Source: Saxidomus purpurata
Taxonomy: Eukaryota; Mollusca; Bivalvia; Venerida; Veneridae
NCBI GenBank assembly: GCA_022818135.1
Contig: JAFMSR010000005.1
Coordinates: 26,049,029 to 26,113,028, forward strand
DNA length: 64,000 nt
Direction of reading: 5' to 3'
The notes beneath the pieces were generated by a model. It worked only from the letters and a program-made list of their open reading frames with translations. It did not search any database and was not told the DNA's origin. Every line of letters starts with the position of its first letter. Position 1 is the stretch's first letter. This document shows positions 23,024 through 57,075 of this stretch, piece after piece. Position numbers and translations under genes: made by a program.

Positions 23024-23884
23024 TACGGAAGCCCAATAGTGCCACTTTGTTTGTTTTTTTTTAATTGATTTTTTCAACATAACTAAGTTGAAAATTCAAG
23101 AAAGTAAGTTGAAAATTCAAGATACTAAGTTGAAAATTCAAGATACTAAGTTGAATATTCAACTTACTAAGTTGAATATTCAAGATACCACGTTGAATAT
23201 TCAAGATACCACGTTGAAAATTCAACTTCTTAAGTTGAATATTCAACTTCTTAAGTTGAAATTTACTAAGTTGAAAATTCAAGATACTAAGTTGAAAATT
23301 CAAGATACTAAGTTGAATATTTAAGATACTAAGTTATAAATTCAAGATACTAAGTTGAAAATTCAAGATACTTAGTTAAATATTCAAGACACTCAGTTGA
23401 AAATTCAACTTACTAAGTTGAATATTCAAGATACTAAGTTGAAAATTCAAGATAGTTAGTTGAGAATTCAACTTATTCAGTTGAAAATTCAACTTACTGA
23501 GTTGAAAATTCAACTTACTAAGTTGAAAATTCAACTTACTGATATTAGTACTTAGTATCTTGAATTTTCAACTTAGTAAGTTAAATTTTCAACTTAGTAA
23601 GTTGAATTTTCAACTTAGTATCTTGAATATTCAACTTAGTATCTTGAATTTTCAACTTAGTATCTTGAATATTCAACTTAGTATCTTGAATTTTCAACTA
23701 AGTATCTTGAATATTCAACTAAGTAAGTTGAATTTTCAACTTAGTATCTTGAATTTTCAACTTAGTAAGTTGAATTTTCAACTTAATATCTTGAATATTC
23801 AACTTAGTATCTTGAATTTTCAACTTAGTTATGTTGAAAAAATCAATTTAAAAAGAAACAAAGTGACACTATTGGGCTTCCGTA
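23024..23884. mobile_element. Foldback-type element with inverted arms of tandem AAGTTGAAAATTCAAG-like units, 6-bp TSD
   Basis: Both ends share an inverted terminal sequence of about 75 bp: TACGGAAGCCCAATAGTG at 23024 and its complement ending at 23884, then TTCAACATAACTAAGTTG. Inside, the left arm (to about 23540) repeats a unit of about 22 bp (TTGAAAATTCAAGATACTAAG and variants) and the right arm (23560-23830) repeats its complement. Direct AGAAAC flanks at 23018-23023 and 23885-23890 mark the target duplication. This is the structure of foldback elements, whose arms are built of subrepeats. No coding capacity; open frames of 78-116 codons are translated repeats. Confidence 0.85.
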
Positions 23885-24221: not shown

Positions 24222-25449
24222 ATGGAGTGCCTGAAAGAACCGACGTGCCTGCGAGAGTCAAAGGTATGAATTACGCCAAGTTATAGTGCTTCTTTAAAAC
24301 AATACTATTTGTTTTGTTTTCGGAGTGATGGGTAACGTGTATTATTTCACTTAAATGTAACCAATTTATATTTCAAGTTTTATACCACGTGACAGTCCAA
24401 TATAGTACCTCTTATTACTGGACCCTTTCAACAACCGGGGCCGAAAATTCCGAATCAAATCCATATTTGAATTCTTGGCAAATGAGTGCAATAGACTCAC
24501 GTGATTGAAGGTCATGGGTTTGAGCCCTGCTACAGACCACGTCTCTTTTATGCGAAAAAGTTGACAGTTTCTTACTGAGGATAGGGATCTAGTACCTGTT
24601 CTTCCCAGGAACGAAAGTAAGGTTAACTGGTCGCCTTTATAGAAATGACCGAAATACGCTTGAAACGGGCGTTAAAATGATATGTACAACTACAACATAT
24701 AAAACATTACTTGTATATATAAAACTTAAGGGCTTTTTTACAACACAATAACTCTTTGGGTATATACTACTGTGTTCTTTCTTGCAGACTTTGAAGAGGC
24801 CTAACATATTGTAAGTATCATTGTTTAACAAGAGACAAACGGAACTTCGGTACTTGTATTTAATATCTTTAATGACTTTTGTTTAGAAAATCATCGAAAT
24901 GGTATTTTATCAAGTTTTTTTTTTTCGTGTATTGATTCATTTTAGTCGCAAATGAAGCACTCAAAACAGCTACGACAGGGAACCAGACTACTTTAAAGCA
25001 CCCAACCCACTCACCTACCTAATTAACTTACTATATCTACGTGCCTACCTACCTATTTCAACTTCTCTTTCGCGTGTTACAGACAAAGGGTACCTCTTCA
25101 TGTTTATCATCACTAGCCACGTATTGCTTGCTATATACTTACATATATATGATATAATCACTGCAGGATTATTTCAGAATAACTAAATAATATATACTTT
25201 TAGTCTTTGTAATTTTGCTTTTCAGTCTCTGTGATGAGCCGGCTGAGAAGAAACCTCGACTGGATACACAAGGTTAGCCATATGCTGTGTAGAAATCAAT
25301 ACAATATTGTGCTTGTGACCAATGAGTTTTATGTCGTTTACAGCACATAATAACTAGTTTAAAGGCACACTTACAACATAAAGTACATGTGTACATAAAG
25401 TAATCCCAAAACACCATGTAACATAGCACTCACCATTATCCAGAAAATT

Positions 25450-25516
<67 letters not shown>

Positions 25517-25900
25517 ACGCGTAAATGATAAGTTAAATCCTTAGAATGTCAGTTACCCGAAATAGTGTAGAATGCCAACCTCGCTCAACCCAGGACGCAA
25601 CCTTAGAGAAAACTGTAGAAAAAACATCCGTGCTGAGTCAACACTATATTTTATTCCTCCATGCATGTTTTTAAAGGTATATTGCAGTCCTATATATAAA
25701 TACTGCAGACATCGTTATCGAGTTACTGAATTCAGAGATGTATGGAATTAAAAGATAAAGGATAAAAACAAAACAGCTTTATCGTTATTCCTGTTCTTAT
25801 TCCTTTAGCATGTTTGTATGTAAAACATGGATACATGTAATTTCGTTTAAATATTTCTCTTCCAGTCCAGAGCTATGCAAGTGTTTTCCATGAAGCAGCG
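24222..25900 (+). CDS. Leader exons 1-4 of the CARD/IRG gene, including a 23-nt microexon
   Basis: Four tiny exons of 42, 23, 47 and 35 nt encode residues 1-49. Donors are AAG|GTATGA, ATT|GTAAGT, AAG|GTTAGC and GCG|GTAACG; each acceptor follows a pyrimidine tract ending in CAG. Phases run 0, 2, 1, 0, so the chain is only open if all four are used. The peptide has the short basic segment AEKKPRLD, which resembles a monopartite nuclear localisation signal but is too short to prove it. No domain is recognisable. Individually the exons are weak; the joint phase match is the evidence. Confidence 0.65.
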
Positions 25901-28900
25901 GTAACGTATCTGTACTGTCTTGTTTGACTTTGAAATTCAAGTTTTGTAAAATCCTACTTACGTTCGAACCGGCTTGTTCCCTGTTCTTACTATCGCTACA
26001 GACACTATTAACTATAGTTGTACTGACACAAATGTTTGTATTTTTCCTCTTTTTCGGTCCGCTATTTGTGCTAAGGGCGAGTACAATTTGCTTACGTTGT
26101 GTCGAACCGCCCTGCTTTGCAAACAACCTTAACTTCATATATTGCAGTTTTACCGTGCTCCCGTACTAAATAATTAAGAAAACAAAGATGTTAATGTGAT
26201 ACACACTATTCAATAGTATTGATATAAACTGATACTTCCCTGTAGCACAAGAGGATAAATGAGAGCTCACATGAAACCACTTACAGATTCATCGGTTAAT
26301 TCGACCTTGTAACAATCATAAACGTTTCGTGAGATAAAGGTTGCTATATTGTAGGTCCTTGACGCTGTTAAGGTACTGTATGACCACTTCAAATCACTTA
26401 AAGAAGATATGGAGGCGTTAGAAGTTGCACGTCTTTTAAGGAAAAATAGGGTATTAGATGTGCCATCATACAACAAAATCGTCTGTGAAAAGACAAGAAG
26501 AAGGCGCGTGGACGCACTGATCAAAGTTTTGCAAGAGGCGATTATTCATAATGTGTGTACAGGGAACGTTCAAGTATACACGCAATTTCTAGAAGCACTG
26601 ACGGAGACAGGGCAAGCTGACATTCGTGCAATGCTGCATAGGAAAGTGACACCTTACCGACCCGTCAAATACGGTAGTAACATAGTCTAGATACTCACCT
26701 AATGTTTTGATGTAATATTAATCCTTATTAAAGAAATAATATCGTATAACTTGCATGAATACTTAAAGGTCCATTACTAACCTCAAATCAAATTTTCTTT
26801 TAAAGTGACATTATGCACATTTTTTTTTCAAGAAAAAATCCGGCTGAAATAGGTGTGTGTAAAAAGGGTAGAAAAAATAATATATTTTAACGCAATATAC
26901 CAAACTCTTCCTGCTACCAGTACGAAATAATAACTTTCCAAATATTGCTTTTCTTATTTTGACTGGGAGAGTCAATTTAGTAAAACCAAAAAAAACCAAA
27001 AAAAAAAAAAAAGGCCCCGGGGGGGGGGCCCAAAAACCCCCCCCCCCCCGGAAAAAAAAAAAACCCCCCCCCCCCCCAAAAAAAAAAAAAAAAAAAAAAA
27101 AAAACCCCAAACCACCCCGAGGGGGGGCCCCACCCCCCCCCCCCCCCGGGGGGGCCCCCCCCAAAAACAACTAGGTAGCAAAATCTTCCTTTTCCCCATT
27201 CCCCCCCCCCCAAAAAACCCCCCCCCCAAAAACAACTGCATGCAGGAGTTGCTTCCCTTCCACTGCCGAAATCTTTTGTACCAACAACTACAATAACACA
27301 AGGGAGATCACTGCGAAGCAAGGAACTATTAGGAATGATTCTATTTGTCCATTTTTTTCATTTCTCAAGCACCAACTTCAAATACTAATGCGGCATTATC
27401 ATTTGTTTTACACATTTAAATGCACAGCAACATAAAATTGCTGTTATAAAACTGTCACCAAAAATACACTACGTGCAGTAAGATGAGCATAATGTCACTT
27501 TAAATCTGGAATCGTAACGGGCGTCTTCTCAGAAGGAAAAATATGACATACTGCATTGAATGTGACCATACTGTGTTGAAAATTTGAGTTTAACAAAAGA
27601 ATTGATTGCCTTTTCAAAAACGAAAGTAGGTTTTCCCGTTTTCAAAAATCTGTACATAAATAAGCATGCCTATTTTGAATTATAATTGAAGAACTTTACT
27701 TCCAGTGATGCGCAAAGTATATGTCTGACTGTATACAACATTCAATAAAGCAAAAGTAGGACAAAAAGACCTGCCAGGTCAATTTAAGGAAATACACAAA
27801 CATTCATTCGTTTTTCTGCAGTAGTATTTCAAACAGAGAAATACTCCAAAGCTATTGTAAAGTTTAACAAGCCAGTTTCAAACTGTTTTTATCTGTTACA
27901 ATTCCAGATTTAAAAGAAAATTAAATTTGATGTTAGTAATGGTCCTTTAAACATCACTGTTTGGCCGATAGCGCTCGCGTGCCCGGTCCGCAAAAGTATG
28001 TGTAGGCCTGGAAATTGATGTGTTGACCTGCACAGATTTTAAGACGTCATTTCTGTTATATTTTCGCATGATTTAATTACTCTTTATGCGGTATACAATA
28101 TAATAATATTACACTAATTTTGAGGTCAACACATAGTTTTGCGGACCTGTGAAAAAATGATATTGACCTCGGACTTCCAATTTTTTCACAGGTCCGCAAA
28201 ACTAAAAAGTCTATAATATTAAATAGTGTACTCAACTACACAAACAAGGTCATGTGGTAAAACAGCTTCCTTTTCCTCAGTTCTTTAAGGTGAAAGTTCG
28301 TGCCTTTCTTATCTCGTAACTAGATTTAGGTTTAGTAAAGTTATTATAAGCGAAATCAATGCAGCCTTATTGCCACTCCAACAGTGTTTCTTTTAGTTCT
28401 GAAATTTACCGTACACTTTTTGTATACTGGTTTACGCTTCGGAGTATATATTGGTTACATTGATCAGTAAATGTTTTTTTTCTTCAGAGAATGAAAGGTT
28501 GATGAAAATGTTCACGAAGAGAAATAGAGATATTCTGAATGAAATAGAACCATTAGATATCATAGATGAGATTGTGGTGCTCCGAGGTCTGAATTTTCAC
28601 GAACATGAAGAAATCATGCAGGCAAACTGTCGCAAACAGAGAGTTAACCTATTGAATAAACATTTGAAATCCTTGAGAAACAAACAATCTTGGCGAATTT
28701 TAAAACCGATAAGTGAGAAATACAAGAAACTGTTCTCAGATCCACTTGAAATAGGTAATTTCACCATAGAATTTGTTGCCATGTCAACACTTTCAAAATA
28801 TCAGGACACCATATAAATATATACATGAACACGATTGTTTGTTAAATATTTGTGTTTTCGTGATAACTAATAAACCATTTATAATGTGTAAAATATGTTT

Positions 28901-31900
28901 CTCAAGTTTAAACTAAGTTCTTAATAATCATTTATAGAAGGCTGTTCAAAGATGAGCTATGCCATTTTAATGTTCTCACTATTTTAATGATTTAAGTAGT
29001 ATTTGCTTTAGTTGATTATCTTGATGAAAATAGCGTTACCAATATTTTACCCATTTAAATATAGTGGACTTTATATATCTAAAAAATAGCAGGCTATAAT
29101 GTAACTAAAGAAATCGATTTTTTATTTTTTACAGATACGCCGTCATCAACTTCAAAACCGCTGGGAGCTTTAGCGTCCGCAGGTACGTCGGGAACTACAT
29201 CAGCGTCCGCTGGTACGTCGCAAGCAACATTCATGTCCACTACTTTGTCTTCGGAAGGGTCTGGTACATCCATCGCATTGAAGTGTAGTTTCAGAAACAG
29301 AAAATGCAGCATTCCGATTTCTGAAACTACTGAGCATGATCACCCAGCTGTTCAGCTAAGCAAAATAAGAGCAGTGGAAAAGAAGGCTGTTGATAAATTC
29401 AACAGCGACCCTGAGAAATCCAAGGACGCCTTAGGAAAACAAATGGAAGAGTTAACGTTATCCGTTAATGGTTTATCTTTCTCTTCAATCAAAATTCATT
29501 TACAATCAAATTCAGATACATCTTTAGAGCAGTTGAAAGAATGTTGTCAGGACGAAAGGGCGAAGTCTTGGATATTGTCGTTGCTTGATGAGGAGTCTGT
29601 TCAGAGACTAAAGGACTTGGAGGCAACAGGTGCAACTTTAGAGATTTTTGTTGATGAACGAGAAGACTTCTTACACATCTTTGACGAACTTGAGGAAGGT
29701 AAGTCGAGAAGGAATGAGCCACTACTGCAATATTTGACTTATGTTTTTCAAGTATTAAAATTGTGACAAATCCCAAGTATTTGATGTAGATATATTGTTA
29801 TTTACGATTCATATTTTAGGCTGCTTGTGTGTACTGAACAGCAAGAATGTGGAATGCAACGCGAATTATGTTCTCGACAACCTGGAAGATTTGGAAATAT
29901 CATTCATTGAAAAAGTATTGGGGAGAGACATTCTAACGGAGACACAAGAGCACGAACTTAAAAAGATCAAAGAATGCGTCGATGATCTAGAAAGGAGAAA
30001 GACCTTGTTACAATTTCTGCTGAAAGAAAACATGCCTCAAAAGATGTATTGCCTGCTTGAAGAGGAGATGATGATGGGTGGGAAGGCCGAAGTAATCATT
30101 CGCATACAACAGACAAAAGCATGTAAAACAGCCGATGGTAATTTCCCCGATTTTTTTTATTTTAGGTCTGTTTGTTATGGTTTGCCGAGTCACGTCGTGT
30201 ACTGTTATTCACATTATATTTCGTTATGTCTCAAAGCTTTGTCTACAGAGTCCTTTTGTATACGGAACAATGAAGCATGAGTTTGTTCATTAAGGGGGGC
30301 CTGAATGTAAAGTAAAAATATAAATTAAAAAACTTTATCCAGATAAAATAAACGGAATGCAATGTGTTGACAGAGTCTATGTATAAGAACAACATAAACA
30401 ACTGTAGTCTGTCTTTGCAATACACTAAAAGGTCTATAGATATCTTAGTGGATTTAACTTTACTGATTCATTTATGTAGCTATGTCATTGCAGATCCCAA
30501 AAATATCACTACGATGGGTAAAGGGCAGATTACAGTGTCCGATGTACGCGAACATGCCGAAATACTTGAAGATGAGATTGATCCACGATGGTTTATAAAC
30601 AGTCTTCAAACCCGATCTGATGCGAAATCCTTAACGATGCTGAAAAATATTCAGGAATCCAGATCTAGAACTGAACGAACAAAACCATTCTTAGAATACC
30701 TATATGAACAAGATGATTTACACTGGTTTACTGATGGGTTAGAAATACACAACAAACATCTACTGGATATCTTTAAACGAGAGCCAGAAGAAAGTAATGC
30801 TGCAAGTTAGTAATGTAAAACATTTTTCTTTCGGATGTTAATGAAAATAAAATTATTTACGTAGTACTTATAGCAATTGTATCAGGGAAAATTGTCAAAT
30901 GATTATTGGAAGTAAACAGTTCAAATGAAAATATTCCACACTAAACTTGAAAGTTCCTATTCCTAAAGTCCTACACTTTTTCAGATTTGAAGTTGGCTTT
31001 CCTGTCAGCATACGATGATATTGTAGATGACATGGAACCCATGCAGGTGGTAAAACAGCTCTCTTCCTCAGTTCTTGACGAAATTGACATGACTTCTCTG
31101 AAGAATATTAGAACAAGGCAACGGCGAGCATCCTTCTTCATTAGAAAAATGCTAGGAGGAAGCGACCCAAAAGTCGTGGCCGTTTTGGAAGCAATGAAAC
31201 ATTGCTACAGTGGTTTAGTCACAACGATCGAGAAGATTTTGGAAACTGGTAGATTGTATATTTGTACTATTTGTTTATCAAATGTTCAAGTTACTCTTCA
31301 ACTGTGCTAATAAGTGCAAAGCTGGCTGTCCTCTTGTACACTGTTCATTATTGTATTTCAAAATCATTTTATAGTAATGATCTTTCAGCTACTCGGTTAT
31401 TTTACCAACTTAGATTGAAACAAATAAAGTAGTTCAATAGTCATCATAAGCATAATAGACAAAACATGTTAGATAACTATCAAAATAAGTCGAAAAACTG
31501 AGTGACTACAAAACATCAATAAATTCCGCACAGGTTAACATTATCTCCGAGAGTTAAGATAAAATCGGTCTCCTTTTGCAATAAGTGTTGTTAAATCTAT
31601 TGAAAAGAACGCATTTGTGTAATATTTATTTTTTATCTTTTATTTTTATGATCATATTAGTCATTTGAATTTTGTTTAAACTTACTGTGGACTCGAGCTT
31701 TTTTGTTAAGTAATGCGCAAGTGTTTGAACATTTAGAAGCTTATGTTTTGCGCACACAGTTCTTAATATATATAATCATTTTGCTATTTATATCAGTACT
31801 TAAATGTTTATTAAGTGAATCTACTAAATATCATTTAATTGAGCATTTAATACCATTCCAGGATCCTTGTTTGAAAAGTACAAATGTCCTAGGATAAGGC

Positions 31901-33228
31901 GTGTTCACGGCAAATCATCGACATGTGTCTTCAGTACAGATATATCCTTATTTGAATCGGATGTGAACAAAAGGTAAAACGATACAATCAGCTATGGGTT
32001 TGATGTAAAATTTCTCATTCCAACCAACAGACAATAGTTCAAAATTTTTAACAATATAAGTTTTAAGCTTGATTCCAACATCACTAAGTGTATATGTCTG
32101 CATCAGTTGTATTTTTATTATAGTGTCGTTGAGCAACATGCAACTTGTTCTTTGCAAACTGTGAAGAAAAGCAGTATAGCCCATGGGTAGGTTTATTTCT
32201 TATCTTTATCGTTGAAAAAATGTTTTGGATTCAGCGTTTCTTTGCATTTCAAAGCTAAGTTCTAAAGTATCTGTACAGCTAACCGAGTGCCTTTTGTTTT
32301 ATATATTCACGGCAACTAGTTTATCGGACATATTTCCCATTACCATGTGACAGTCTGCGTACATTTTATTCGTGGCAATTTTCATAATCTCGACTTGTTT
32401 CAACATTAGACATCAAACTGATTTTAATGTCAAATTATTATGACGACGACCTATTTTGATCTTAGTATATTTAATGTCTTGTTTATTTATAATATTTATA
32501 TTTATAATATATTTAAGTCATATACTAGTAACTTGTACATTTTCAGATTTGTCGAAGCTAATATCACCAAGTATGATAAAAATATCAAAAATGAAAAAGA
32601 TGTGCACTGGGCGTCTTACAACCGATACAAGACAAACATTGGTGTGATTGGTGCTAAGGGGACATGCAAGCTTCCTCTGCTTGATGCCTTGTGCGGCCGA
32701 ATCGAGACCGACGAAGAGACAGCCCCAATATATGTGGAGACAAATTTGAAAAAGTTTGGGTCGTATAAAGAAGCAAGAAATGTTTCATTTTGGGATCTTC
32801 CTGAAATTGGCACTGAGCAGTTCCCTAGGAGGACCTACCTGAAGGATGTTGACTTCAAACGTTATGACTGTTTCGTCATCTTAGTGCCTGGAAAGTTCAA
32901 AATAGATGACAACATTTTGATCGCTAGGGAGCTAGCACATTTGCATAGAAAGGTTCTCCTGATTAGCACAAGTAGAAGTAATGTCCTGATATCTAGTCAT
33001 GTACAACAACAGCCCATTGCACACTGTAGCAGTGCAAATGCTGTCACTGAGAAGCAAGTTGTTGATGCCGTTCGAAAGAAGTACTGCAGAGATCTCGAAG
33101 TGCTGGGTTGTACTGAGACTAGTCTTTTCCTGATAAACGAAGATTCAATACTGAGCAATGACTATGACTTTGATAAACTTATAGCTAGACTAACTGAAGA
33201 GGTTGCTGACGGTAAACACATGATTTGA
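24222..33228 (+). CDS. Multi-CARD protein with C-terminal degenerate IRG-type G domain (12 exons, 994 aa)
   Basis: Spliced model: exons 24222-24263, 24788-24810, 25226-25272, 25866-25900, 26355-26673, 28488-28754, 29135-29698, 29820-30137, 30494-30805, 30985-31248, 31862-31973, 32547-33228. Every junction has AG/GT borders, phases agree, and the sum is 2985 nt (994 codons plus stop) with no internal stop. The ATG at 24222 is the first in frame after an upstream TAA. Residues 1-49 are a leader with a basic KKPR stretch. Residues 50-155, 156-244, 433-538, 539-642 and 643-730 are helical CARD-like units; 245-432 is a low-complexity linker plus an alpha/beta domain; 768-994 resembles the G domain of immunity-related GTPases (WDLPEIGT, RYDCFVIL). 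CARDs assemble signalling complexes by homotypic contact; IRG GTPases act on pathogen membranes in vertebrates. A cytosolic immune scaffold or sensor is inferred. Death domain or DED is a less likely label for individual units. An AATAAA near 33867 could end the transcript. Confidence 0.85.
24474..24628 (+). repeat. tRNA-derived SINE
   Basis: TGGCAAATGAGTGCAATAGA (A box region), GGGTTTGAGCCC (B box), then a body AGTTGACAGTTTCTTACTGA / GGATAGGG / TTCCCAGGAA also found at 37934-38106. In intron 1 of the CARD/IRG gene. Confidence 0.65.
25452..25511. repeat. (TA)n microsatellite
   Basis: About 60 bp of perfect TA in intron 3 of the CARD/IRG gene. Confidence 0.95.
26355..26673 (+). CDS. Exon 5: CARD-like domain 1
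   Basis: Phase 0 in, phase 1 out, 319 nt, residues 50-155. The pattern LYDHFKSLKEDMEALEVARLL, then VLDVPSYNKI, then EKTRRRRVDALIKVL follows the six-helix CARD layout (acidic helix 1-2, a hydrophobic helix 3-4, the basic-rich R..RvdaLi.vL of helix 5). It is the most typical CARD of the five. Acceptor GTAG at 26351-26354; donor ACG|GTAGTA at 26674. Confidence 0.8.
26990..27234. other. A/C/G homopolymer block in CARD-gene intron 5
   Basis: About 240 nt of A, C and G runs, nearly T-free on the + strand apart from about 27170-27201, with the same texture as 52895-56527 and a second C-rich run at 27202-27230. Open frames of about 110 codons on either strand come from it. It lies in the intron between exons 5 and 6, so the gene model is unaffected. 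Confidence 0.8.
28135..28203. repeat. Perfect 24-bp inverted repeat with 21-nt loop
   Basis: AGTTTTGCGGACCTGTGAAA / AAAT at 28135-28158 is exactly complemented at 28180-28203. GGTCCGCAAAAG also occurs at 27983, so an inverted-repeat element of about 220 bp (27983-28203) is possible. In intron 5 of the CARD/IRG gene. Confidence 0.8.
28488..28754 (+). CDS. Exon 6: CARD-like domain 2
   Basis: A symmetric phase 1-1 exon of 267 nt, residues 156-244. The segment RDILNEIEPLDIIDEI followed by LNFHEHEEIMQ and RKQRVNLLNKHL matches the helix 2-5 signature of CARDs. An open frame runs past the donor (ATAG|GTAATT at 28755) to 28816, but phase agreement with exon 7 favours splicing. The 1.8-kb intron before it carries a homopolymer block at 26995-27232. 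Confidence 0.8.
29135..29698 (+). CDS. Exon 7: Ser/Thr/Gly-rich linker plus alpha/beta domain of uncertain family
   Basis: Phase 1-1, 564 nt, residues 245-432. The first 50 residues are a flexible linker with a short internal duplication (SAGTSGTTSASAGTSQ). After a charged stretch comes FSSIKIHLQS (strand), a long amphipathic helix with EQLKECCQDERAKSWILSLL, a strand ATLEIFVDE and a final helix DFLHIFDELEE. This strand-helix-strand-helix order recalls TRADD-N-like or RRM-like folds reported beside death folds in molluscs, but the match is by eye only. It is the only module of the protein that is not CARD-like or G-domain-like. Confidence 0.7.
29820..30137 (+). CDS. Exon 8: CARD-like domain 3
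   Basis: Phase 1-1, 318 nt, residues 433-538. NYVLDNLEDLEISFIEKVL, ILTETQEHELKKIKE and LERRKTLLQFLL give the helix 2-5 pattern of a CARD; helix 6 is met by MPQKMYCLLEEE. Donor GATG|GTAATT at 30138. A run-on open frame to 30280 is intron. Confidence 0.75.
30494..30805 (+). CDS. Exon 9: CARD-like domain 4 (divergent)
   Basis: Phase 1-1, 312 nt, residues 539-642. VREHAEILEDEIDPRWFINSL, then SLTMLKNIQESRSRTERTKPFLEYL fits a CARD with an unusual Trp in helix 3 and a second Trp in DLHWFTDGL of helix 6. It is the least typical of the five units. Donor GCAA|GTTAGT at 30806. Confidence 0.7.
30985..31248 (+). CDS. Exon 10: CARD-like domain 5
   Basis: Phase 1-1, 264 nt, residues 643-730. AYDDIVDDMEPMQVVKQL, VLDEIDMTSLKNI and RQRRASFFIRKML give a clear CARD helix 1-5 pattern. 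Donor ACTG|GTAGAT at 31249. Exon 11 (31862-31973) then supplies a 37-residue basic linker (RIRRVHGKSS) that leads into the G domain. Confidence 0.75.
32547..33228 (+). CDS. Exon 12: IRG-type G domain with degenerate nucleotide-binding motifs
   Basis: Residues 768-994, 682 nt, ending in TGA at 33226-33228. The core NIGVIGAKGTCKL aligns with the IRG P-loop (usual end GKS), but reads CKL: the last loop glycine and the Mg-binding Ser/Thr are lost. The switch-II motif DLPG reads DLPE in WDLPEIGT, and the G4 motif expected after VLLIS (T/NKxD) reads TSRSN. The flanks typical of IRGs (FPRRTYLKDVDFKRYDCFVIL) are kept. The alpha-helical C-terminal half of IRGs is missing. The donor-like GACG|GTAAAC at 33210 could extend the gene, but I saw no downstream exon before 35.3 kb. 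Known family: interferon-inducible immunity-related GTPases. Inference: a pseudo-GTPase. Confidence 0.8.
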
Positions 33229-33370
33229 TATGCATTCAGCACATGCCGTTTGCAAGAAGTGCGCGCAGGGTAAAGGTATTATTACGAGCATAATAGTATG
33301 AGACGTCAATTAATAATAATTAATTGAACTTTATTGTTTATAGATGATGTATGCATAATATGAGTTATAT

Positions 33371-33690
33371 TCAATCTATACCTTTACAGAGACACGTGCT
33401 TGAAGTGTGATATTCAATCTATACCTTTACAGAGACACGTGCTTGAAGTGTGATATTCAATCTATACCTTTACAGAGACACTCTTGAGTTTATATTTAAT
33501 TATATCTTTATAAAGACACGTGCTTGAAGTGTGATATTCAATCTATACCTTTACAGAGACACGTGCTTGAAGTGTGATATTCAATCTATACCTTTACAGA
33601 GACACGTGCTTGAAGTGTGATATTCAATCTATAGTTTTACAGTACAGATACTCGCCTGCTTTAAGTGTGATATTCAATCTATACGGTAAA
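33371..33690 (+). repeat. 43-bp tandem repeat, about 7 copies
   Basis: Unit GAGACACGTGCTTGAAGTGT + GATATTCAATCTATACCTTT + ACA, first copies at 33389 and 33432; copies 3 and the last two are diverged. It starts about 140 bp after the stop codon of the CARD/IRG gene and so probably lies in its 3' UTR. Confidence 0.85.
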
Positions 33691-35322: not shown

Positions 35323-38300
35323 CTATTTCTTTTTAAGATATTCCTTCAATCCAATGCATCCAACAGTAATCAAACCAATGGCTAGGGAAATTTTCAGAGC
35401 TTTCAGTCCTAACATACTAAGTGCTTTCCACTTTAGTTGTCGTCCAGCACTGTGACCTATTTCAATCATTTGTCTAACAGTTTGTTTTTGTGTTGCTCTT
35501 GTATAATATCCGTGTACAATTGGTCGCCTTTCGCTTGAGAAATAGCGAGATGCAACACCGATGGCGGTCAAACGAAACATTAAACCGACTGCCGTGATAT
35601 CTGCAGCGTTGAACGTTGGACCAAAAAGCCACACATCTCCCGAGCTGCCTTGTTCTAGAATAGAAAATATGTACACAATTGTATTCACGAGTCAATCATT
35701 GCAGCATGTGTCATATATCACGTTAAATGTATCTTCCACCTCTTAAATTCTTGATATACATTTAAATGTGTGTAGTGCTACTATATGTATTAGTATGTTG
35801 TATGTGATAAGTAAGTACCCTTGAAACCATGCGTTCGTAAAGGCAACATCAACAGTATATAAAAGCTGTTGTTTTTAAGGCGGTTTCTTTTTCCAAAAGT
35901 AAGAAACCTTGAAATTCTTTTTATTTCATCAGCTCATGAAAAATACGAAATTGTTTCAGACTGTTTAGACAAACAAGCTGTACCCTTGCTGAAGTGAAAG
36001 AGGTGAGATGGAAAGATACTGGAAACTAGAAACAAAATGGGAACTTCAGAAATACGGATTGAAGTACAATATATTTACTGAATGCCTTTCTTTGTCTCAT
36101 AAAAAAAGTTCTAATACTGAAAAGTACGTCTGCTTGTAAGGGTTATTGTACGAGTACTGTATCTATATTTGAGACCCGTCTCCGTGATCAAATGGCTATG
36201 GTCGCTGACCTGAATTCACTAATCCTCCCACTGGTAAAGGGTAATGAATTCGAACTGACTCTTAATGCGAGAAATTTGGAAGTTTCTGCCGAAAAGACCG
36301 ATAATTACAAACAAAAATGTAGGTAAACTATTTGCCTGTAAATCACTGAAATACAAGTTGAAACGAGCTGTAAATCACTTGAAACAAATGGTGTATGCTT
36401 AGTAAAGTCGTTGTGGGTTGCATTCAAATGCGAGTATACATGCCTCTATTGCAATGCAAGAAGTGTGCATACCTAGTTTCGTCTTTTCCAGTCTTTCTGC
36501 AATCTTATCAAATATTTCTTCAAGCTCACCCAGACGCTTACCGACCACTTCTACATCTAACACATTTGCAAGCTTCCGTGAAACCTTGACAATTTTTGTT
36601 TCAATGACTTCTTTCATTTCTGGTGCGCACGCTTCACTAATCTTTATCAAGTTGGTTACTTCTCCTGAAAACCTTCTATCTGAAAATCAGATACAACACG
36701 TGTTTCAACATTTAGCTGCAACATAAAAAGGTGAAAAGTTTCAGTCAGCATGTAAGATCTACTGAAAAATATAATGAACAAGTATCACAGATGGAAAATA
36801 TTTTGTTATTATTTCAAAGAGGAAATCTCAAATTTAAACACCGATAAAGAATATTTTAAGATCGCATTACTTTTAAAGCAAAATGCACCACCATGAATAC
36901 AAGTCTTGTATATGTCTTGTATATATAACTATTCTGCCGCTCAACTTTGATAACACACCTATTACATGATAATGGTCATCGGTGTTTCCTTAATCGCTCG
37001 GAATCGCGAGTCACACAAAATTAAGCAATTTTAGTTCAATTGTGTCAATGTATTTCTAAAACAAAATATATTTGTAAGCTATATTTGTAGTTTTGCTGAA
37101 AAAATAACGTAATATGATTCATTAGATTTGTTTCTTTGTTCTTTTTCAGTTTCGTTTCAATTTATATTAGATCTATTCTTTAATATTGCTTTTTTCCGCT
37201 GTCTGTCACCTACTTATTCCTTCCCTGGAGAATCCTCGTGCAGGAAGTGTATCAAGCATGTTGCTGTCCATACAGAAATGTCGATTTGCAAATACTCCAT
37301 AAGTGATGACGTCAATTGGAATGTCGTGAAGTAACTTCCGGAAAGCCTGAACTTCACTTCCTTGTGCTGTCTTAATATCTGGGACGAGTCTCGGACCTGA
37401 AAAAGTCAGTCATGTTTGTTTATATAGCAGGCTTCAAAATGCGAGTAATATCCCAGTGAACTCTGTAATCTGCAAATAACGAGTAACCAAATTAAAATTG
37501 TAATTATATCAATATTTGATATAGAGGTTTACTACATTTTTATTATAACAAACAGGCGCCTACGAAGCCAATTCTAATTCTAAATTACCTCCAACATGAA
37601 GCATTGTCCGTTGTTTTCATTTTTAAAATCGACTCCATTGTATTAAACAAAAATTACTCACCAGACTTAAATATTTCATCGATGATGTCAATGATTTTCT
37701 CTGATTCGGAGTAGCATTTTCCGTCAACCTCGAGTACAGGCACCTCTCCCATATTGTTCTTTTTCAGGTACCAGTCCTCGTTTTGCTCCCCGAACGGGAT
37801 AAAAATAGGATACCCCTTGAAGGGCACGTCTTTTTCAAAGAGTGCATTCAGAACCTGTGGAAAAAAATGAAATGATGGTGGGTTTTTATCGGTTTTACGC
37901 CCGTTCCAACCGTATTTTGGGTACTTTAATAATTTACCTGACATTCCTTCCTGGGGAAAACCAATGCAAAACCCCTATCCCTCTTAAGAAACTGCCAACT
38001 TCCTCACATAGAAAGTCATGGTCGGTAGCATGGCCCTAACTCTATTAGAACTAGGTGTGATTTCGAGTCAGCAACTCTAACCACTCGATCATGGAGGTGG
38101 AGTAAGTTTAACACGTATATACTGTAAGGTTTATATAATAGTGCATCACGAAATATCAAGTTTTGGAACCTCATTACAATGAATTATCACGTACAGATGC
38201 ATTGTAGTAATTCTCCAGTAGCATCTTAATTAAGTAAAATCTTAAGATTTTCCTTAAACTTAGCAGTTTCCTAAAGATAATTTAAGAAGGAGAATGTGCA

Positions 38301-40841: not shown

Positions 40842-41704
40842 TCTAACGCCGGCCTTATCGAATATCTTATGAAATGAAAATGCAGTTTTAGTCCGCGGTA
40901 TACACATATATTATAGTCCAAGGATCACATTTCCAAGTAGCTCTCATTCAATCAAGAAAGATGTACTATCAGAATTGACCTGTATATGCACAAAAACATT
41001 CCAAACTTTGCTTTTTAGATCGACAAGTACATTATTATTATTCAATGACATTGAAAAAAAACAAGAAAGGCTACCGGCAATTCTTTTTCATCATGAAAAA
41101 AACTTGAATACAAAAGAAGGGCATACTTTGTTTAAGAGTGACTACAACAATGGTACTTTGATTATCCTATCAAAACTTTAATGTAACTATATCAGTCAAT
41201 TCAAAGTGATCCTGGTACTTTCAACTTTATGTAGCCCGCAGAACGGAACTAACCATTAAACTTTGAAAAATCAGCAATGCGTTCTGTATAAGAAATATAT
41301 GAAAAGAACATGGTAATAAAGTTAATAATTAAATGAGTTTCTAGACATTATTCAAATGGAGTGAGATACAAATATTTGCATGCATGTCCTGAACATTTAT
41401 TTACGCAGTGCGTAGATGAATAACCGGTAATTGGTGTTTCAGCTTTAAAAATGAATGATATGTCTTAAATTGTACAATACGCCTATTGTCTATTAGCCTT
41501 TGAAATATTCAGAGTTTTTTAAACTTAACCAACCAGTAACCTATCTGCCCGACACGTTAGATACATACAAATTATTCATGCCAAAAGAACTAAATAATCA
41601 TTGTTTGAATACTTATAAATTACGCTTGTTTCTATCCAAACGTTATGTAGAACAATATAATAGTATTAAACTAAACTGAATACGTCGCTGTGCGTTAGTT
41701 AACA

Positions 41705-44700
41705 ATGTCAGCTCTGTGGATTCTGATCACAGCGCTGTTTGTTCAATCTTTGTGTGCGCAGGTTCACAAAACTGTAGATGGCATCAAAATAAAAACGGTT
41801 ATTAATTTAGAAAATATTTGTACATCTGATGAGGGAATGTTTGCTTTTTTACTGGGCTTATCAATCGAACAGTGTGTTCAAGAATGTGGATTGCGTAAAC
41901 ACTGCGTTGCGCTTAACTATAAAAGGCGTGCCAATGTTTGTGAGCTGTTGTCGTCCGAAGGTAACGTCGTTTCGAATACCGCAGGTTGTATTCATGTACA
42001 TGCTTCGGATATAGAAGTGATGCAGGTACATCTTTGTAATCTTTTAAATAAAACATGTTTCTTCAAGGATATATCGAAAGTGCGAAATAAGGTAACGAAA
42101 AAAAAAGTTTTCAGTTATTATTAAAAGTTTTCAAAACATGTAGAATTTACACAAGCAACAAAGATAGAGCACTGTTCCCTCTGCGAGTTGGGTTTTATTG
42201 GATGATCCGTAACATATCTTCGCCAACAGCAACTCTAGTTTATACTAATTTATTTTAGGTCGATTGTGAAACAAGTTATCCAACTTATATTAATCACTCT
42301 CGACACCTCATTCCTGATGGTATCCATCGCCGTGAGGGTATGAGAAAGAACTCTAAAACTACTCACTTTAAGCTTTTTGTGAAACAATTAAGTTCTCCAA
42401 ACTGTCTGAAAAAAATTTTTTTTTACAACGAATAGTCAATAAAAAAATCAAGCATATTCATGTTAAGTATATCTGTATATTTGAAATTATACGCTACTTA
42501 ATTATAAATCTGAAATTTCAATATTTTTATATATATATATATAACATATAGCGTAGCTAAAATTGCCTTAAAACCTAGCTAACCAACATTTTCAACAGAT
42601 TTTCTCAAATTGCTACCTACATATTTACTTGTGTTGTTAATTCTAGCAATTACTTTTACATTTTATAATATATATCACATTGGAGAAATATTATTTTTCA
42701 CCGAAAACTATGATCGAGCAGCTCTAACGTCAATGGTCAGTGACCATTGCAATATCCATTGATATACATGTATATTAATAGAAAATAACAATATTACCAA
42801 CCTTATATTCATAATAATTTTGTATAGCAGTTTCATTCTTTTTGAATACAGAGAAAGTTTGTACAAATATTTTATCGAGTCTCCTACAGGCTTGTCAAAA
42901 ATTAAAAGTTCCTGTCACGGTATTAGGCATATTTTCATTTCTATTGGTCAATATAAGAAAAATGCCAGAAACACTTATTTTCAACGCATTTGTCACCTTT
43001 AAAGCGTCCTATTCGACCAAAAAAAAGGCGCCGCAAATAATTCATTTTTTGGTATCAGGTAATGTATCGGAATAGTGCACCCTTTATATACCTACGCCGA
43101 ATTGTGCTTTATATGAAAAGCCCACGAAAACGATAGATGTAATGGTTAAAATACTCATCCGCCGTAGATACATATACCTTTTTCTACAAAATATAACTAC
43201 CAATCGCTTTCATTGCGCCGACATAGTTTTTCTTTATAAAATGTTTCTGGTTTGACATCTAAATATTTAACAATGTACATTTATAACAGTTTTCGGGTAA
43301 ATCGTCGGCCCGGAACGATCAGTTTCGAAGTCGATACAGTTTGATTTTTAATTGATGTTATTTTACACATTTCAAAAAAGAGGTTATTTTTTGTAACAAA
43401 ATGGATTTATTGTTCCTTTCCATGACACCCTTGACTGAACAATGCATCCCGGAAACTGTTCAATAGTGTTTTTCCGTTATAAGTAACACGATGTGATATT
43501 GAAAATGCGTTCTACTGATTGAATTAAACCAACTAACAACCAAAAGCCGTTCTTTCCCGTACACGCTATATGGGTATTTCCCTTTATATGACAGTATCTT
43601 CACTGGGTAAGACATTGCTCGTTGAACTTGCAGAAATCGCCCGACAGTGCGTTTGATTTAGCATTGCAGGTTTGACAAGTAGCTGAAAATAATGTGCATA
43701 TCTTGCTGCTAATTTAAATATCGTTTGAATAGCGTAGAAATATGCAAATATTGTTTATAGAAGTACTGGCGCGAACTTATCATGTGATCATTTCAAAGCC
43801 GATATCGGAGTTGCTGTGGCATAGCTTAGCGTGACATAGTAACAGGTGCGAGGATTATACAAAAAATTGTAGACGTTATTAATTAAATACTAATGCCTTA
43901 ATTTGCCTAGACTTTCGTATTTTGTATTTCAATAATATATATAGACTGATGTGCCGTAATGCTATAACTTTATTAAACAATCTTATGGGAAAACAATTTC
44001 CGATAAAAGTGAGTTCCAAATGAGGCCCTGCTCTCAATGGTGGTGCCAATAAACATAATTAACTTATAATATAATCTGGAACACCATTCGAAACATTGAA
44101 GTTTTGAAACATGTTGACATTTCTGCACGTTAGAATATCAGTCTATTGTTTCTTTAGGGGTCAACATTAAGTTGAAATTCGAAAATTCATTTTATAACAG
44201 CGTAAGTATATTTATGCCCCACTCGAATTTATTTCTAGCATTATGTACATGTAATAGTACCGTACGATTTCTTTCATTGACTGACTGTATTTTGTTAGCG
44301 ATAAGCTTTGTGACTGCATACTTCTGTCCAGAAGTACTGAAACATGTACGGATTTGATCAGATAACTGTTCAATACAATGAATTTAGCAACTGGATACAA
44401 AAAAACTTCGGACCTTACATATTTTCTATACAAAAGAAAGACATATTTAACACGACTATATAGAGAATAGAACATGGTTCTATCATTATGCTACAATGTA
44501 TCAGTTAAGCTATTTTTATCAGTAGAACCATTTTTACTCTTCGAGAAGTAGACTTACTTTCGAAATCGACTAGTAAAAGCCAAAAAAGTAAGACTTAGTG
44601 TAACAAATAAAAGAAACGAACAAAAATAGGGTTACACATCAATGTATCTATATTTACAGAAACCATGTACAGAATGTGCGTATGGAGAGGCGTGTGACAT

Positions 44701-47700
44701 AAAAACCAGACAATGTATATTTAAAGGTAACATTTTATTTTTGTATTAACGACTTTTTGTTACAGATTTGTTTACTTTCAAAGGAAACTTGTACATATAG
44801 TATAATAAATATACCGGTTACGGTTGTCCAACAGGTCATTTCAACATATTTTCTATTTGTCTTGAACTTGAACAAAATGTAAAGGCTTATGAAACGTGTG
44901 ATCAAATTTGAGCTCCGTACGTAGTAGATTCAACTAGAAACAAACACATTTCCGTGTATCAAAATGCATTCATGGAAAAACAAATTTCCCAGCAGCTCAA
45001 TATCACACTGATCCATATTCAGCGGATCACTCATAATTTAATATTTCATAAGTCTTCATAACAAATCGTAAAGTCATATTGTTAGGTCTGTCAAGTTCTA
45101 TAAACGTTACGTTGAAAATTAATAATGTAATAATTTATCTTTTGTTATTGCATGGTGACAGTCATCCATTACCGGTAGTCAGGACCACTCACATCACATT
45201 TAGGGCTTTTATATGCATGACATATTTTTCAATAAGATAATTGCATTAGTTCAATAACATACGAAAATTGGACAAAAGTGTTGAGTTGTCTACTGCAATT
45301 CATTTTCATTTAATATTAATTTTTGAATATATTACAGTCATTTTTAAAACGAATCGATAAATGTTAGTGCTACAAAATGATACAAGCTTGTATGATTATA
45401 TAAGAGAAAATATGCAAATATTTCTGAAATGGTATTACTGCCATGCCTAAGTATAGGCAAATAAAAGTGCGAAGTATTTGTTCCAATTAGTGCGCATTGA
45501 ATATTTTTACTGCCAAGACCTTCCGTAGAATAAAGATACTACTTTCGTCTATTTCTATTAATACGTTTCGCTTTAAACTATTAGATCTGAAATCAACTTG
45601 TCTAGTTTCTGTTTGAAGTATCAAATTTGATTTCGATACCTTCGCCAAACGCTTAAAAAAATCACACACAGTGCTTAGTCCTTGACCTTATTCATTGTCC
45701 AAATTCGACAAACATCTCTTGACACGGTATGCAAAAACTGTCAGACATACAAACAGGTTACTGAATTGATTAACTGAAATAAACACTGGCTGACTGAAAA
45801 CTTTCAATAATATTGTTCTAAGCATGATATTACGACGTTTCTGATTTATATCAAATGTTATAGCCATGTAATGCATTATTTCGATGTTTTCCTGAAGTAA
45901 TTACAGCCATTTGAATCATTCTAAATTTGAAATGTCCTCTGACTTTGATATTGTTTTGAAGATTTACATTTGAAAACACATTTTGGCAGTTAACAAACCA
46001 ATACGACACACAAATGTCTCTTCAGGTCGGTAACATACGTGGATACGTATTCACGACTTTGCATACCGTCACTGTATCAAATCTGTAGCCGAATACTCAA
46101 AAAACATGTATAAATGATTGACTTAGTGTACGGTAAATGCTTTAGTATTACCATTTTGCAAGGAAATATTAGATTATCATCGATATCGGGGGTGTCAAGA
46201 CATTGTTTTAATTCCTTTACTTATTATAACGAGACTCAATTCGTTTTCGTTTATCTGTAGAATGTTTAGCAACAGTGAAGAACGGACGGGTGCTTGGAAA
46301 CGACTTCACTATTGGAGCTGTAACAAGATATAAGTGTAACGGCGGGTATACAGAGACAAGCGGCGTCATAAATGCTACCTGTTTTCCATCAGGACAGTGG
46401 AGTGCGGTTGCAGACTGCCAAATAGGTAAACTACCCTGTTAAATAGTATGCATCAGCCACTTTCACACTATTCTGTATATATATACTCTGTTGCAAAAGA
46501 AAGTGTGCACTTAGGTTTTCGTTAATTTTATGTATCATTTTAACAGAAATATTTAAATATTTGGTATCACAATTTAGAGCAAGTTATGCTCAATTTCATT
46601 TGCAGTGATAGCACATTCAGTTGACAGCAAATGGTGTATAAAGGTAGTGTTCGAAATTAGAGACCGATATGTTTTATCAAAATGGAGAAAATAAAAACGT
46701 GCACACTTTTTTTTGCAACTGAGTATATTTATCATTCTGTCTAATTTGGTTTTGGAGTTGCGCGTGTTATTATTTTTCATTTCACAAAAACGATAATCCA
46801 TTGGCATGCTTAAAGCTGCTCGTTCATAGTTTCAGGTGAATAACATAATATGTATTCAAGCATAAAATGTAAAAGTAAATGCCAGAATCAATAACCAAAG
46901 TAACAAATGGGTAGCAATTTGCCAAAAATCCATTGAAAATGTTGGCTGGATTTGGATTTTAACGAGACCGCTATAATGACATATTCAAAAGCGTTTGTAA
47001 CGCTTTATCATTTGGTAGCGTATACATTCAAATATACAGATACAGTCGACAGGCATTTATACTGGAACCTTTTTATTTGACTATTCGTTCTAAAATATGT
47101 TATTTTATAGGGTTTTGGAGAACTTCATTTTTTCATAAAAATCTGAGAGCGAGTAGCTTTAAAGAATATATTTTTACCGAAATGTCTAAATCTTCAGTAA
47201 ATCATGACGATGAATTATTTCTTCAAACAACGTCTGCATTGTTTACAATCGCCGAGGATTGTAACGGACCGAAGGCACGCCAGCCATATTGTTTTGTAAC
47301 TAAATTTTTCAGAGCCTCAGAAAAAGCGACAACGATGAGGCCCCAAACGCATGGCAGTATAATAATCCAGATAGTATACATCATTGTATAGTAGACCTCT
47401 TCGAGGTGTGGTCAAATCATGACCCTGGGGTCAATACCAAGAAGGTACTTATTTTACATAGACATATATAGGAAACCTTAAGATTTCTTCTTCTCCGAAA
47501 CAACAAAGTTTAGAGCTTAGATTATTTACTGTGATATAGTGGCTTGTGGACCCTTTTCAAAGTTTGTTCAACTCATTCCCCGGGGTAAAAATTTACCCTG
47601 TCCAGGAGGTCACTTGGTAAAGTAAAAACTTTGAAAATCTTCTTTTCTAAAACCAGGCAAGTGCACTGGTACTCATGTGAGCAGTAAAGGGCCATCTTGG

Positions 47701-50700
47701 CCTGTTTTTACTTGTACTTTCATGTGTATTATGTATTGTGCAGTTTGTGGGGAATTGCCTAATGTGAAAAATGGACAAACATCATTAGGCACAAACAGAG
47801 TTCACTCAATCTTACAATCAGCTTCTGTAACATGTGACGCAGGGTACATGAGCAGTGTGGACACAATTTCTTGCACAAAGTCCGGAAGCTGGGAAACAGC
47901 GACGTGTGACCCTATAAGTAAGAACACATTTTGTTTCTGTTAGCGTTTCTTTCGTCATAACTTTAGTTTTGAAGATTTGTTTTTTATGTATTCGGAGGTT
48001 TAAACCAATTCATACAAATAGTATAAAACACATATTGTGTTGCAAAAAGCTTTATGAATTCTGTAGAAATGTTAAGAGATGTTGATTTTATTTTAATTTA
48101 TACTGATTTATTTACATGTATTCTCGATTGCGAGACAAGTTCTTAAAACTTTTACAAACCACTCTCGAGACTCATTCCATTTGAAATAAACCTCGAAGAG
48201 AGAGGGATGCAATGTGGAATTTTTTGTGTCTTGCCTGAAGACACTTCCGACATGGCTATGGAAGGGATCGAACCCGGAACCATTCGGTCCTGACGAGAAC
48301 GCGCTACCAATGCGCCACGACATTAGAGATGTATATACTTTTTGTCAATAAGACACCTTAAAATATTTTCTTCTCCGGAACCACGAAGTCTAGTGCTTAG
48401 ATATACAGAGTGTAAAGGTGTCTAGTGAGCCCTATTTAAAGTTCTGTCAAATCATTCTCCGGGGTAAAGATTAACTCTGCCCAGGCGGTAACTTGGTTTA
48501 GGAAAAACTTTAAACATCTTCTTTTCTTACACCATAAGGCATATAGCTTATATATTTGGTATAAAACTTTGTCTCGTAGTCTTCCACTTAGTATTTTGTT
48601 CAAATCATGACCCCGTGGTCAAATTGACTACACCCACCAGGCAAGTGCTCTAGTTATTTTTTGAGCGATATAGAGTCGCTATGGCCCTCTTGTTGTTACA
48701 TGTTTCTACTTATACATGCATGTGTATTATGTATTGTGCAGTTTGTGGGGATTTGCCTATTGTAAAAAATGGACAAACATCATTAGGCACAAACAGCGGT
48801 AACTCAATCTTACAATCAGCTTCTGTAACATGTAACGCAGGGTACATGAGCAGTGTGGACACAATTTCTTGCACAAAGTCCGGAAGCTGGGAAACAGCGA
48901 CATGTGACCCTATAAGTAAGAACACATTTTGTTTCTGTTAGCATATTATATTTTTGAAGATTTGTTTTTATGTAACCTGGGGTTTTAAAGGGACATACCC
49001 CATAACTGATGTCAAACTAAACGACCTCCAAAACATAGATTAAATAATCCTTGGAAGTCTTTTAACTTAACATTAAAGTTTCAGCTATGCATTGTTAGTC
49101 ATTATCGGTTTGAAATATACTGCAGTACCCGTAAACCATCCAATATGTTGTTATACAATTATGGGATTCGATTTGTTACAGAAAGACTTTATTTTGATAA
49201 ATTGTGGTAAAATTTGGCATTTTATACCACCGAAGGATGACATTTTAAAATCGCACCGTCCGTCTGTCCGTCCGCCCTTACGTTTTTTCGTGTCTGGGCT
49301 GTAACTTTGTCATGCATTAAAAAAGGATTTTGCAATAACTTGGCAGAAATGTTCAGCACATCAAGACGATGAGTCGCGTGCAAAACCCATGTCCCGTTCC
49401 TCAAAGATCGAGTTTGAAAGTAATGGAATCCTGTTCATATGCACACATTCGTGTCCGGACTATAAATTTGCCATGCATTGAAGGATTTTAAAATAACTTG
49501 GCACAAATGTTCAGCACATCAAGCCGACGTGTAGCGTTCAAGACCCACATCCCTACCTCAAAGGTCAAGGTTACACTTAGAGATTATAGGTAATGAAATA
49601 CTGTATATTTGCATACATTCGTGTCCGGAATGTACCTTTGTCATGCATTGATTGATTTTAAACAATGTGTCGCGTACAAGATCACGTCCATACCACAAAG
49701 GTCAATGTCACGCTTAGAGTTTAAAAGTAATGGAATACTGTATGCATGGTATATGCAACTCGTTCATGGAAAGATTTTAAGATTACATGGCACAATTGTA
49801 GAGCACATGTAGAGGACACAGACTGTGAGACACCTCTTTCGGGGGCATTCGTCACTTGTGAAGGACAGCTCTTGTTATATTTTAAACCGCTGGTTTTATC
49901 GATAATGACTGAAAATGCATAGCTGAAACTTTTGGGTTAGGTTATAATTTTTCTAAATATTCTATTATTGGTGTTTTGGAGTTACAGGGTATGTCCCTTT
50001 AATATATACTGCAGTACCGTTAACCATTCAATAATCTATGTAAAGTTGTACAATTAATGGGTGGATGCGATTTATTACAGAAAACCTCTATATTGATTAA
50101 TTGTTGTAAAATGAGGCATTTTTCGTCATAGTTTCTTCTTTGAATTGTATTTATTTATCATTTTACGTTCATTGATCACCTTATCTATGTTTCGAGAATA
50201 AAATCTGCTGAGAGCGAGCAGATTTAATTGTACAACAACAACTCTACATAGATTATTGAATGGTTTACGGTACTGCAGTATATTTTAAACCGTTGATTGT
50301 ATCGATAATGACTGAGAAAGCATAGCTGGAACTTTAAGGTTAAGTGATAATATTTCCAAAGATTATATTATTTATGTTTTTTAAGCAAATGGACCAAAGG
50401 TCAAAGTCACAGTGACCTTACCTCCGTTAGATTTCCTTGATAAAGCTCTACAGACAACAGTTTTCGATCAGTTTTCGATCAATTTTCATCAAACTTGTTT
50501 AGAAGGTTCCCAGTAACATTGAGAGCGATACTGGCAATTTTGGGCCTCTTGTTGATGTTGTCCTATACAGACACCAAGTCTCTCGAATTATGACTATATT
50601 AACAGCTTTTTACTGCTCAATCAGCATGCGGAGACCCGCCTTCGATAGGACATGGTACTGCAATTCCCGACAATGATTTAATCAGTGTTTACTCGGACAC

Positions 50701-52629: not shown

Positions 52630-57075
<4,446 letters not shown>

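Follow-up and report, generated by a model that had tools for sequence, protein, structure and literature searches.

A clam gene of 13 exons for CARD-like units and an IRG-type G domain

We analysed a 64,000-nucleotide (nt) stretch of the Saxidomus purpurata genome, hereafter the window, in which one spliced gene on the + strand, at 24222-33228, encodes five CARD-like units, an intervening module and a carboxy-terminal IRG-type G domain. The exon edges were set from the genomic sequence by GT-AG boundaries and phase on that strand. The gene has 13 exons and 12 introns, all GT-AG, that form a single frame with no internal stop; the coding length is 3048 nt including the stop, or 1015 amino acids (aa), and the genomic span with introns is 9007 nt. 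A preliminary description of this DNA had placed the start at 24222 and the stop at 33228, with which the rebuilt model agrees. The unbroken spliced frame that it reported also stands, but not its length of 994 aa, since it had omitted the 21-aa exon 12 at 32124-32186 (1015 - 21 = 994). The exons are listed below, with evidence from predicted structures (AlphaFold2), profile comparisons and two full-length relatives, P0001 and P0002.

24222..24263, + strand: exon 1, putative start MECLKEPTCLRESK; GT donor, in frame; not conserved in P0001 or P0002
24788..24810, + strand: exon 2 (TLKRPN..); splice sites; TLKRPN also present in P0001
25226..25272, + strand: exon 3; splice sites; weak conservation, with gaps
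25866..25900, + strand: exon 4; splice sites; weak conservation
26355..26673, + strand: exon 5, CARD unit 1 (aa 50-156)
28488..28754, + strand: exon 6, CARD-like unit 2 (aa 156-245); AlphaFold2 helical bundle, hhalign match to unit 1
29135..29698, + strand: exon 7, Ser/Thr/Ala-rich linker and alpha/beta module (aa 245-433); AlphaFold2 secondary structure, low confidence
29820..30137, + strand: exon 8, CARD-like unit 3 (aa 433-539), the least supported; AlphaFold2 helices
30494..30805, + strand: exon 9, CARD-like unit 4 (aa 539-643); AlphaFold2 and PDB profile match
30985..31248, + strand: exon 10, CARD-like unit 5 (aa 643-731); hhalign, PDB profile matches and AlphaFold2
31862..31973, + strand: exon 11, conserved linker EKYKCPRxRR; conservation in relatives
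32124..32186, + strand: exon 12, 21-aa linker; GT-AG, in phase; residue number shared with P0001 and P0002
32547..33228, + strand: exon 13, IRG-type pseudo-G domain (aa 789-1015) and stop; IIGP and Irgb10 matches

Relatives were sought among 5.8 billion proteins by a search that relies on shared five-residue words and length limits, so that absence elsewhere cannot be read from it. Two of the 7995 candidates scored passed the cut-off of E 0.01: P0001 (1003 aa, 58% identical over 578/992 aligned residues) and P0002, which is Mercenaria mercenaria LOC123536077 (994 aa, 50% identical over 491/981 aligned residues). Both are collinear with the 1015-aa model, and the alignments span 97-98% of it. 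P0001 lies on a 3776-nt contig, shorter than the 9007 nt that the window gene needs; it was probably read from spliced RNA as cDNA and is less likely a retrocopy. When the P0001 G domain served as the query, the same two proteins were recovered again among 722 candidates, while a profile of exons 11-13 added three more among 2902. Two of these, P0003 and P0004, carry the G domain only and closely resemble one another, and we read them as genomic fragments; the third, P0005 (Mercenaria LOC123525006, 364 aa), combines a truncated G domain with parts of units 4 and 5. The nearest named relative is thus from Mercenaria, in support of a bivalve affinity.

The chance of 1015 open codons at this base composition is ~2e-33 before allowing for exon choice, and the conservation of the gene in collinear full-length relatives is the stronger proof that it is real. 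On the strength of P0001 and P0002, a chance open frame or a merger of genes was rejected. Although the S. purpurata model was read from genomic DNA alone, it is barely credible that two adjacent genes were fused on paper: the same unit order recurs in two other full-length proteins, one of them on a contig too short for introns, and the Mercenaria paralogue P0005, on another long sequence, also links unit 5 to the G domain. At the nine junctions after residue 38, 5-15 of the 20 flanking residues are identical to a relative; at the first three the figure is 4-11 of 20, with gaps. The start codon is uncertain because exon 1 (14 aa) matches neither P0001 nor P0002. At the exon 12 site both relatives carry an equal residue number, ungapped and with little sequence likeness, and across the linker of exons 11-12 they share 32/59 and 29/59 residues with the model.

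Exons 6-10 (267, 564, 318, 312 and 264 nt) are multiples of three with phase 1 at both ends. The gain, loss or skipping of any one of them would leave the frame intact, and isoforms with a smaller number of CARDs could arise in this way. A tblastn search with the model found no second copy of the gene within the window, where the sole other match had E 0.94. The short N-terminal exons at 24788-25272 encode KRPN..KKPR, partly kept in relatives, which we take to resemble a bipartite nuclear import signal.

Decay of the nucleotide motifs in the G domain

Exon 13 matched the Pfam family IIGP at E 4.4e-20, with 72.5 bits against a cut-off of 24. Its best PDB match was Irgb10 (E 4.7e-15), to residues 67-254 of which it aligns, and by these matches it is an IRG G domain. 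Of the 375 positions in the IIGP profile, the match extends to 219 (222 in P0001 and P0002), and the ends of the window model, P0001 and P0002 differ by no more than a few residues; none of the three thus has the C-terminal helical domain of IRGs.

The preliminary description spoke of a pseudo-GTPase, and the GTP motifs are degraded in all six sequences. The G1 motif reads GAKGTCKL, GAQNACKD, GSETPCKR, GSQRSCKE (P0003 and P0004) or GSQASGSCKR (P0005), against GETGAGKS in Irgb10: none of the six has S or T after the lysine, and all six have C before it instead of glycine. The G3 motif reads DLPE or NLPE in all six, with E for the DxxG glycine (DLPGVG in Irgb10). The aspartate of G4 (TKID in Irgb10) is absent in all five sequences that reach the motif, none of which has [NT]KxD. 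Clear IRG homology with these motifs lost makes exon 13 the G domain of a quasi-IRG, as Bekpen et al. use the term (PMC1297648; this and the other papers cited by PMC number are drawn on through excerpts), and the losses argue strongly that it is not an enzyme.

The domain has nevertheless been kept. It is the best kept of all parts against P0001 (157/227 identical) and shares 120/220 residues (55%) with P0002. In the stretch RIETDEE..YDCF, 37/59 residues are invariant in five sequences, compared with 55/167 elsewhere, which ranks first of 168 windows of the alignment; as the block was picked after viewing the alignment and P0003 and P0004 are near-alike, the ranking is descriptive only. Aligned to IRGs, the stretch appears to cover the region of switch I through switch II.

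CARD-like units and the exon 7 module

Unit 1 has the six-helix CARD fold in its predicted model, and its structural matches are CARDs, including the inhibitors ICEBERG and ARC; the best structural matches are the tandem CARDs of RIG-I/MDA5 and the CARD of Apaf-1. As modelled, it is clearly a CARD. Taken alone, unit 1 matched Pfam CARD at E 2.9e-4 with 21.3 bits, below the curated cut-off of 23.9, and the same match within the whole 1015-aa model has E 0.48; within P0002, CARD_2 was matched at E 3.9e-4 (20.8 bits against a cut-off of 28.2). The PDB profile search speaks against a CARD by sequence, with designed PPR proteins first (E down to 4e-15) and the natural PPR10 (E 2e-4) ahead of the Apaf-1 CARD (0.058). 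A PPR identity was set aside, because these are repeat proteins matched in several stretches by a three-sequence profile, as all unit profiles are, and because the structural comparison gives CARDs.

In the AlphaFold2 model units 2-5 are bundles of helices of which the first is broken, a CARD trait. Unit 2 forms such a bundle with its sixth helix not modelled and aligned to unit 1 in hhalign at a probability of 80.5. Unit 3 consists of helices with the lowest block confidence among the units (predicted local distance difference test, pLDDT, 34-79); the corresponding region of P0002 contains a weak CARD stretch (E 0.023). Unit 4 has block pLDDT of 66-88 and its top PDB profile match is the RIG-I tandem CARDs (E 0.1). 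Unit 5 was aligned to unit 1 by hhalign at a probability of 93, its best PDB profile matches are to the Apaf-1 CARD (E 0.035), and its block pLDDT is 69-83 after a first block of 55. Pfam CARD gave no match for units 2, 3 and 4 taken singly and matched one of the three members of unit 5, at E 0.11. Taken together, the identity of units 2-5 as CARDs is partly shown. The five CARD-like units of the preliminary description hence hold as helical bundles in the AlphaFold2 model, while Pfam supports unit 1 only, below its cut-off.

Matches of unit 2 to alpha-tubulin acetyltransferase (E 1.4) and Phage_pRha (E 0.02) were taken as chance, as were domains of unknown function (DUF) and the other weak Pfam matches of the units. 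No match in a viral structure library passed E 0.001, the best having E 0.04 at a template modelling (TM) score of ~0.05; two CARD-bearing equine herpesvirus proteins stand lower in the list.

Between units 2 and 3, exon 7 starts with a linker of ~45 residues rich in Ser, Thr and Ala. In the AlphaFold2 model of exon 7 alone (mean pLDDT 53.5), this is followed by a module of a strand, two helices, a strand, three helices, a strand and a helix, three strands in all, and the whole-protein model agrees except on the last helix. None of its 314 Foldseek matches passed E 0.001, the top-ranked having a probability of 0.10, and no sensible Pfam match was found; the fold of the alpha/beta module named in the preliminary description is thus not established, the model being of low confidence and without a fold match. 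The strand and helix order, with a general resemblance, suggested TRADD-N, an RRM-like two-layer fold with four strands (PMC8195603). TRADD-N is not established here and the module is left unassigned, as nothing was found for this candidate in Pfam, the PDB profile search or hhalign: Pfam gave no TRADD match up to E 10, and hhalign to human TRADD-N gave a probability of 0.1 with a single-sequence template of low power.

Comparison with known systems

No CARD-IRG fusion was described among the matches listed from the open-licence literature searched, in line with the earlier statement that no described protein has this order. Within the same scope, a quasi-IRG with several CARDs in one chain is undescribed, while a GTPase of interferon-inducible type with a CARD in one chain is known from fish GBPs (PMC4932187). 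The architecture is not unique to the S. purpurata genome and sits uncharacterised in the databases as LOC123536077. That protein is collinear with the window model over 97%, with the same unit order and the same decayed G motifs; it is 50% identical, its name gives no function, and the locus name was not found in the open-licence literature searched.

The nearest described analogue is zebrafish Gbp4, an active GBP GTPase with one CARD. Zebrafish Gbp3 and Gbp4 resemble the clam protein in joining an interferon-inducible-type large GTPase to a CARD in one chain, and the Gbp4 CARD is required for entry into the Asc speck (PMC4932187). They differ in that they belong to the GBP and not the IRG family, need GTPase activity and carry a single CARD at the opposite, C-terminal end. 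The quasi-IRGs IRGQ and zebrafish irgq1-3 share IRG homology and decayed nucleotide motifs with exon 13, but the excerpts of PMC1297648 mention no CARD in them, and mammalian IRGQ, unlike the clam protein, follows the IRG chain past the G domain as well; an independent origin is likely. Canonical IRG GTPases such as Irgb10 and Irga6 share G-domain homology with exon 13, whereas the clam protein has lost G1, G3 and G4 and lacks the C-terminal helical domain. With the RIG-I/MDA5 tandem CARDs and the Apaf-1 CARD it shares the CARD fold, but it has five units and neither a helicase nor an NB-ARC ATPase. Death folds and immune GTPases are also joined in marine-invertebrate Death/TRADD-N proteins with AIG or GBP GTPases, bivalves included (Kaur et al. 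2021, PMC8195603), although the word IRG is absent from the main text of that paper as excerpted. The view in 2005 was that IRG GTPases are missing from invertebrates (PMC1297648), yet a later paper reports numerous IIGP genes in clams (PMC5499747).

A proposed docking role for the dead G domain

We propose, with a probability of roughly one in three, that the gene encodes a bivalve multi-CARD immune scaffold with a dead G domain that serves to dock a partner. The domain would no longer switch with GTP, while its switch I to switch II face, by which IRGs switch and pair, would be kept for protein docking. The partner may be an active clam IRG GTPase, from a family that is large and expanded, or a factor with which an invader targets such GTPases. 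Several docked copies would bring the CARDs together, and the clustered CARDs would then seed the assembly of downstream CARD proteins or recruit them, much as an inflammasome or apoptosome does. Such docking has a precedent in IRGQ, which has a decayed nucleotide site (PMC1297648) and binds GABARAPL2 through a pocket that switch I, switch II and a linker form (PMC13172515), and zebrafish Gbp4 without its CARD stays out of the Asc speck (PMC4932187). As to possible partners, the Manila clam has 145 IIGP genes (PMC5499747), Iigp5 is expanded in two burying bivalves (PMC7251785), and the poly(I:C)-specific genes of the Manila clam include interferon-inducible GTPase 5-like (5.10 as printed; PMC7430831).

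IRGQ also offers a different model, in which the dead G domain would dock an ATG8 protein or cargo as in an autophagy adaptor and the CARDs would bind another partner. That a quasi-IRG docks through its switch I/II pocket is the analogy on which this model draws (PMC1297648, PMC13172515); we consider it distinctly unlikely, given that nothing links the clam protein specifically to IRGQ and that the quasi-IRGs of different animals are unlikely to form one group (PMC1297648).

A more specific form of the scaffold, which we regard as doubtful, is a guard receptor: the dead IRG domain would be a built-in decoy for the clam IRG system, on which invader factors, or activated IRGs at an invaded vacuole, would dock and so cluster the five CARDs. 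If true, the clam would have a platform of the inflammasome type built on neither an NLR nor a GBP. The same parts could serve to dampen death signalling, with the CARD array titrating CARD proteins of the clam and the quasi-IRG tethering it to IRG-positive membranes. In favour of such a brake, ICEBERG and ARC are among the structural matches, a dead G domain would fit a regulator, and Bekpen et al. raised the idea that quasi-IRGs form heterodimers with active IRGs and so may regulate them (PMC1297648); since the evidence fits activation and inhibition alike, we hold it to be unlikely.

Several observations weigh against a CARD scaffold with a dead docking domain. None of units 2-5 alone is significant in Pfam, and for the full model Foldseek gave no match better than E 0.001. 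The pLDDT of the G domain is mostly <50, and with the domain so poorly modelled the argument about its surface rests on sequence. Against P0002 the G domain is not the top part, unit 2 (53/90, 59%) and unit 5 (49/89, 55%) being kept as well or better. The full architecture was found in two sequences besides the window gene, and so narrow a distribution also fits a lineage oddity. Finally, the G1 lysine is kept in all six sequences and P0001 has SKTE, a conservative change to an acidic residue, at G4, so that weak nucleotide binding may persist. On these two features one could suppose that altered nucleotide binding makes the G domain a switch, either slow or constitutive; with the S or T after the lysine, the G1 glycine (C in 6/6) and the DxxG glycine lost in all six, we judge this very improbable.

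Should the docking scaffold be real, a dead IRG domain and a CARD array would tie vacuole-attacking GTPases to death-fold signalling in one chain, and the link would lie in animals without adaptive immunity. The protein offers a cheap, concrete test of quasi-IRGs as docking modules or decoys.

Surroundings of the gene in the window

Directly upstream of exon 1, at 23073-23827, lies a tandem array of 36 copies of a 21-bp unit, which reads as open frames because of its period alone; another, with 7.3 copies of a 43-bp unit, lies shortly 3' of the gene stop at 33361-33684. A small stretch of A, C and G runs at 26995-27235 falls in intron 5 and touches no exon. A larger one, ~3.6 kb of long A, G and C runs between normal flanks at 52889-56527, has a GC content of 0.81 and an AT skew of 1.0 in 54001-56000 and is probably an assembly or sequencing artefact.

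The convergent neighbour at 35326-37974 (- strand) has GST N- and C-terminal domains, and its product is presumably a GDAP1-like protein. One PAN, two sushi and one kringle domain are encoded in frames at 41699-51352 (+ strand), which probably belong to one or two secreted proteins, and two amino-acid transporter frames (Aa_trans) lie at 61298-62016 (- strand).

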